Shown piece by piece: positions 63,678-64,000 of a stretch of 64,000 bases of DNA. The translations under genes were made by a program, and so were the position numbers. Position 1 is the stretch's first letter. Each line of letters opens with the position of its first letter. This stretch comes from Gemmatimonadota bacterium. Lineage in GTDB: Bacteria; Gemmatimonadota; Gemmatimonadetes; Gemmatimonadales; Gemmatimonadaceae. Below the pieces are notes generated by a model that was given only the letters and a program-made list of their open reading frames with translations, had not been told where the DNA came from and did no database searches. The stretch is taken from positions 1 to 64,000 of the forward strand of contig JAPLKU010000019.1 in the NCBI GenBank assembly GCA_026387935.1. The letters are read 5' to 3'.

Positions 63678-64000
63678 ATGCGCATAATGAATGTGATCCG
63701 CGTCACGTCCGCTCTCGCAGTCGCCGGCGTGTGCCAGGCGCAAACTGCGGCGGCGACGGCAGCAGCGCCTCAGCCGGACTTGGGGCCTAAGGTCGGCGAC
63801 GTGGCACCCGATTTCACCCTGCCCGCGAGCACCAAGGACGGGAAGCTCGCGAAGCTCATCCATCTCTCCGACCTCAAGGGCCAGGTAGTGGTTCTTGCTT
63901 TCTTTCCGAAAGCAAGAACCAGTGGCTGAACAGCTCAAATGAACGCGTACCGTGATCAGTACGCGCAGGTCTTCAACGGTGGAAAGGGCGTGACGGCCCT
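63678..64000 (+). CDS. Peroxiredoxin, probable selenoprotein (in-frame TGA = Sec84), 3' end missing
   Basis: Signal peptide (VTSALAVAGVCQA, then QTAA) and an AhpC/TSA fold: VGDVAPDFTLPASTKDGK, LSDLKGQVVVLAFFPKARTSG. The codon at 63927-63929 is TGA, exactly where the peroxidatic Cys of FxPKAxTxGCT belongs, and the frame continues without a stop to the window end as TAQMNAYRDQYAQVFNGGKGVTA, which is the expected family sequence. A standard reading would give 83 residues and no active site. Sec-containing peroxiredoxins exist (for example PrxU of Eubacterium acidaminophilum). A SECIS-like hairpin follows the TGA. The alternative is a nonsense mutation of a Cys codon; intact downstream coding and RNA structure argue against it. 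No sel genes or tRNA-Sec are in the window. Confidence 0.8.
63889..63921 (+). promoter_or_regulatory. Perfect 14-bp RNA hairpin five bases before the recoded TGA
   Basis: Arms 63889-63902 and 63908-63921 pair without mismatch around a TTTCC loop. It is inside the coding sequence for VVLAFFPKART and uses codons (GTT CTT GCT TTT AAA GCA AGA) unlike the GC-ending codons of the neighbourhood, which suggests selection on the RNA. Confidence 0.75.
63944..63965 (+). promoter_or_regulatory. SECIS-like stem-loop after the TGA
   Basis: Stem CGCGTAC/GTACGCG (63944-63950, 63959-63965) with an 8-base loop CGTGATCA. The loop starts 21 bases after the TGA, inside the 16-37 base range described for bacterial SECIS elements, and a G is among the first two loop bases as in the bacterial consensus. 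Confidence 0.65.

Follow-up and report, generated by a model that had tools for sequence, protein, structure and literature searches.

Selenocysteine (Sec) peroxiredoxins with a TxxU active site had been described by 2008 and appear in current catalogues (PMC2398784, a GOS survey; PMC13188914, a 2026 review). The published model of the bacterial SECIS (bSECIS) specifies a stem of 4-16 bp, a loop of 3-9 nt, a distance of 16-37 nt from the UGA and a minimum free energy of at most -7.5 (PMC13188914). Within the loop, a G occupies one of the first two positions and is followed by G or U (PMC13188914). We analyzed a locus at the end of a 64,000-nt stretch of DNA from a Gemmatimonadota bacterium, hereafter the window. 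The locus has the same AhpC/TSA domain (PF00578), PxxxTxxU site and downstream bSECIS as the known family (PMC2398784, PMC13188914).

Two tandem genes with an in-frame TGA

An initial annotation of the window had described the 5' part of a peroxiredoxin frame whose N terminus is signal-like and which carries the active-site motif FFPKARTSG-TGA-T (Table 1). The frame, the N terminus, the motif and the position of the TGA were all exactly as it gave them. Extended past position 64000, the frame runs to a TAG at contig positions 64260-64262. The 110 codons following the UGA are free of stops, although early termination beyond the window had been foreseen as a possible refutation. In the complete product, the TGA aligns with the catalytic Cys of homologues. 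The initial annotation also left open whether homologues would carry TGA or TGC/TGT at this codon; both kinds were found, the Cys homologues carrying TGC/TGT.

The second gene starts thirty-three bases after the first and has its TGA at the identical active-site position, together with its own SECIS and upstream stem. The two proteins are 64% identical. Both have a signal-like start (judged by eye), contain the PxxxTxx(U/C) motif as PKARTSGU and match AhpC-TSA (PF00578), at 92.1 and 94.1 bits against a Pfam cut-off of 26. No Cys follows the peroxidatic (Cp) position in either copy, and the same holds for 44 Sec and 30 Cys relatives within the phylum; both copies are therefore one-Sec peroxiredoxins. 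Among the AhpC/TSA matches of the genome, only these two genes contain a TGA. The tandem gene and the perfect, stronger hairpin upstream of the UGA were both absent from the initial annotation.

The 119-nt segment common to the two copies probably reflects conversion of the active-site/SECIS region, perhaps with nucleotide-level constraint. In the gene tree, copy 2 falls outside a group formed by copy 1 and four other species. Similarly, gene L040 of another species contains a block resembling the clade of a different genus, although the gene itself has another position in the tree. Judged by eye from their translations, the downstream neighbors (L005:4924-8700) resemble genes for a carbon-nitrogen hydrolase and an agmatine deiminase, plus queC and queE.

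Table 1. Positions of the features of the locus. Ranges marked contig are given on contig C18; all others are window positions.
Feature	Position	Strand	Basis or remark
Predicted exported Sec peroxiredoxin gene, copy 1, 5' part	63678..64000	+	Translation; Pfam AhpC-TSA 92.1 bits
Copy 1, whole gene	contig 63678-64262	+	194 aa; single in-frame TGA (U84)
Signal-peptide-like N terminus (MRIMNVIRVTSALAVAGVCQA)	63678..63740	+	Read by eye from translation
119-nt segment common to both copies	63864..63982 and contig 64467-64585	+ (first)	2 mismatches; about 62-65% identity outside
Perfect 14-bp hairpin, 63889-63902 with 63908-63921, loop TTTCC	63889..63921	+	Fold, recoding, paired changes
TGA at the Cp position, predicted to be read as Sec	63927..63929	+	TGC/TGT in aligned Cys homologues
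Bacterial SECIS, 7-bp stem and 8-nt loop CGUGAUCA	63944..63965	+	Comparison and published bSECIS constraints
Second Sec peroxiredoxin gene, tandem	contig 64296-64871 (= L005:4297-4872)		Just past window end; 191 residues, one TGA

Selenocysteine machinery and distribution of the TGA form

A bacterial selenoprotein is recognized by a single in-frame UGA that aligns with the Cys of homologues, as observed in both copies, and by a genome that encodes SelA, SelB, SelD and tRNA-Sec. All four were found here; the absence of selA, selB or tRNA-Sec would have spoken against Sec. Specifically, tRNA-Sec is located at C25:192628-192720 (79.5 bits, gathering cut-off 47), and ARAGORN reported it as tRNA-SeC with anticodon tca. 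The selA gene is at C10:19984-21312 (538 bits), selB is at C25:119409-121232 (345 bits), and selD (375 bits) adjoins tRNA-Sec and has an ordinary TGA as its own stop. The tRNA begins about 20 nt past the selD stop (L014:7371-8721), with selB about 70 kb away and selA on another contig.

An open frame alone would be compatible with decoding of the UGA as another amino acid, through Trp reassignment or near-cognate readthrough. We regard this as extremely improbable: the position aligns with the catalytic Cys, the SECIS is conserved, the genes for tRNA-Sec, SelA, SelB and SelD are present, and selD terminates normally at TGA.

Homologues (E up to 1e-20) occur in 314 of the 395 genomes of the phylum. 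Among the matches listed, the form with exactly one TGA was present in 115 of 135 genomes. A search of these 135 genomes for selA found it in 108 of the 115 with the TGA form versus 3 of the 20 with Cys forms only (Fisher P = 2e-13; as the genomes are related, P overstates the number of independent cases). Several of the seven assemblies with a TGA gene and no selA found are incomplete.

Standard gene calling terminates the gene at the TGA, as it would if this were a true stop that left a pseudogene or an 83-residue peptide. However, purifying selection persists past the TGA (downstream dN/dS, 0.09-0.53), and the TGA is kept across the phylum, tracks selA and is retained by two copies. A true stop is thus very improbable. 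The existence of Cys homologues with TGC or TGT at the same place might instead suggest a sequencing or assembly error, which re-sequencing would correct to one of these codons. We exclude such an error because the tandem copy has this TGA as well, as do 115 of 135 genomes among the matches listed; it recurs in further species of the genus and in more than 100 independent genomes, and synonymous-site conservation of the SECIS is confined to TGA genes. The probability left to this explanation is vanishingly small.

The gene tree requires nine Sec/Cys changes, at least five of them by well-supported branches. In several genomes of the same genus, the tandem consists of one Cys and one Sec gene; the window's genome has two Sec genes. 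Codon -4, the Arg of ART, is CGC in 23 of 27 Cys genes of Gemmatimonadota versus 2 of 43 Sec genes, which prefer CGG, AGG, CGA and AGA. This is a nucleotide-level bias before the UGA that extends to genes without the full upstream stem. Beyond the phylum, TGA peroxiredoxins with a CGUGA-like loop occur, among the matches listed, in Gammaproteobacteria, Acidimicrobiia, Planctomycetota, Chloroflexi, Verrucomicrobia and others. Judged by eye among these matches, they have different stems around the loop, which likewise follows the TGA.

The downstream SECIS hairpin

The 7-bp stem and 8-base loop first noted by the initial annotation were recovered at 63944-63950/63959-63965, 14 nt after the UGA. 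The UGA-to-loop distance is 21 nt and the predicted energy is -10.5 kcal/mol. The stem length, the 8-nt loop CGUGAUCA, the distance and the energy all lie within the published bSECIS limits.

We rejected fold energy as evidence for the SECIS. Only 1 of 200 shuffles folded as well as the SECIS 24-mer, but the wider 51-nt stretch was no better than its shuffles (97 of 200). Compared with synonymous recodings, the fold was not exceptional in the window copies. As fold energy alone proves nothing, we relied on comparison. We compared six genes from the clade to which the window's gene belongs. From codon +6 to codon +17 past the UGA, 93-94% of the comparisons with an identical amino acid also had an identical codon; over most of the gene, the same measure was roughly 40-60%. 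Cys paralogues of the same genomes use other codons across the SECIS region. The outermost stem pair varies on both sides (CG, GC, AU). Even with 3 mismatches allowed, the genome contains the SECIS 20-mer at two sites only, one in each copy. On these sequence comparisons, TGA genes alone keep the downstream hairpin at synonymous sites, which, together with its fit to the published model, bears out the SECIS call.

The hairpin upstream of the UGA

The upstream stem ends 5 nt 5' of the UGA and has a predicted energy of -24.7 kcal/mol (z = -6.1 versus shuffles). Because the VLAFFPKART motif itself favors part of the stem, we tested only the contribution of synonymous choice, with the codon usage of each genome derived from its available loci. 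Under this usage, 8-9 of 13 pairs would be expected. Both copies at the window's locus form all 13, a value reached in 0 to 2 of 4000 recodings, and a total of 14 genes had 11-13 pairs, each with P of 0.016 or less. Rare codons largely build the window's stem (AGA, 1.2%; GCT, 7%; GTT/CTT/GCA, about 10%). Across 16 genes from two clades and close relatives, four helix pairs change on both sides. The whole structure had 24 two-sided-change cells versus a shuffled mean of 8.4, and all slid registers dropped to 31-43% paired.

These data argue strongly, but not finally, that paired synonymous changes preserve the upstream stem in two clades, because the shuffles keep relatedness and the Cys gene L129 also attains P = 0.0035 in the recoding test. 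We rejected the identical hairpin in the two copies as independent evidence; since the 119-nt block may be gene conversion, the copies do not support the stem independently. A fold z below -2 was observed for 31% of the phylum's Sec genes, 3% of its Cys genes and 3% of the Sec genes of other phyla. A general role in Sec peroxiredoxins was also rejected, as the stem is limited to two clades and gene L040. Most TGA genes of the phylum are without the stem, so Sec insertion does not in itself require it.

The upstream stem is the more stable of the two hairpins (-24.7 versus -10.5 kcal/mol) and shows paired synonymous changes, as might be expected if it were the SelB element, instead of the downstream hairpin or jointly with it. 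However, most TGA genes of the phylum lack it, as do those of other phyla, whereas the downstream element is found in all of these groups. As a ribosome footprint on the UGA would span a stem 5 nt upstream, the decoding ribosome should cover and open it. Moreover, known bSECIS elements sit downstream (PMC13188914). We therefore consider such a role of the upstream stem, alone or jointly, very improbable, and assign this function to the downstream hairpin.

It is possible, though we lean against it, that the upstream stem represents a further cis element of bacterial selenocysteine insertion, one not described before. In the literature searched, outside of which lie most subscription journals, we found no report of a stem preceding the Sec UGA of a bacterial gene. 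As a guess, its role could be ribosome spacing: the stem would delay the following ribosome, so that the SECIS could refold between ribosomes. A study of E. coli fdhF notes that ribosomes pile up before the UGA; this queueing, and a SECIS that fails to refold once the previous ribosome has passed, have been proposed as a cause of termination (PMC4513850). Alternatively, the stem might reflect rare-codon slowing, mRNA protection or lineage chance.

Discussion

We are highly confident that the locus encodes two tandem, predicted exported, single-Sec TxxU AhpC/TSA peroxiredoxins with SelB-dependent Sec at the UGA. The observations behind this are the gene structure, the machinery, the fit of the SECIS, the conservation and the co-occurrence with selA; SelB-dependent Sec at the Cp position is preferred because no other reading accommodates the machinery, the SECIS and the conservation at once. 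From these we infer actual Sec insertion. The signal-like N terminus predicts an envelope location, and the family predicts peroxidase activity. SelB would bind the hairpin 14 nt downstream and deliver Sec-tRNA-Sec to the in-frame UGA. Sec would take the place of the peroxidatic Cys, and hydroperoxides would be reduced in the cell envelope. As the mature protein is without a second Cys, the oxidized selenol would presumably be reset by an outside thiol partner.

The initial annotation proposed Sec at the Cp position and considered its occurrence here notable. The assignment holds; the occurrence is less notable than was supposed, as TxxU Sec peroxiredoxins have long been known (PMC2398784, PMC13188914) and this one is common in the phylum. 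The text of the 2026 review does not mention Gemmatimonadota (PMC13188914), and no paper on selenoproteins of this phylum was found in the literature searched, which excluded most subscription journals. Much of Gemmatimonadota would use selenium in a predicted exported peroxidase whose genes are truncated by gene callers. The tandem Sec and Cys genes within one genus constitute a natural experiment on Sec-Cys exchange, and the upstream stem hints that bacterial Sec insertion may employ more than the downstream SECIS.

PrxU of Eubacterium acidaminophilum likewise has Sec at the peroxiredoxin Cp position. The window's copies scored 53.3 and 50.5 bits against the PrxU model (NCBIfam NF040737; cut-off 270), so neither is a PrxU orthologue by that model. 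The closest relatives of solved structure are PrxQ/BCP-type thiol peroxidases (NF006960; PDB 2ywn, at 75.5 bits, and 3hjp). These have the TxGC(T) motif in common with the window's proteins, which differ by having Sec for Cys and by their predicted export. Against NF006960 (thiol peroxidase PRK09437; cut-off 140), the copies scored 58.8 and 65.6 bits. With scores under both the PrxU and the PRK09437 cut-offs, we leave the exact subfamily unnamed. As TxxU selenocysteine peroxiredoxins are already known, we consider the window's gene a new member of that family. It differs from the known members in its signal-like N terminus and the lack of any other Cys in the mature protein, and its locus differs in having two tandem Sec copies and in conserving a stem 5' of the UGA.
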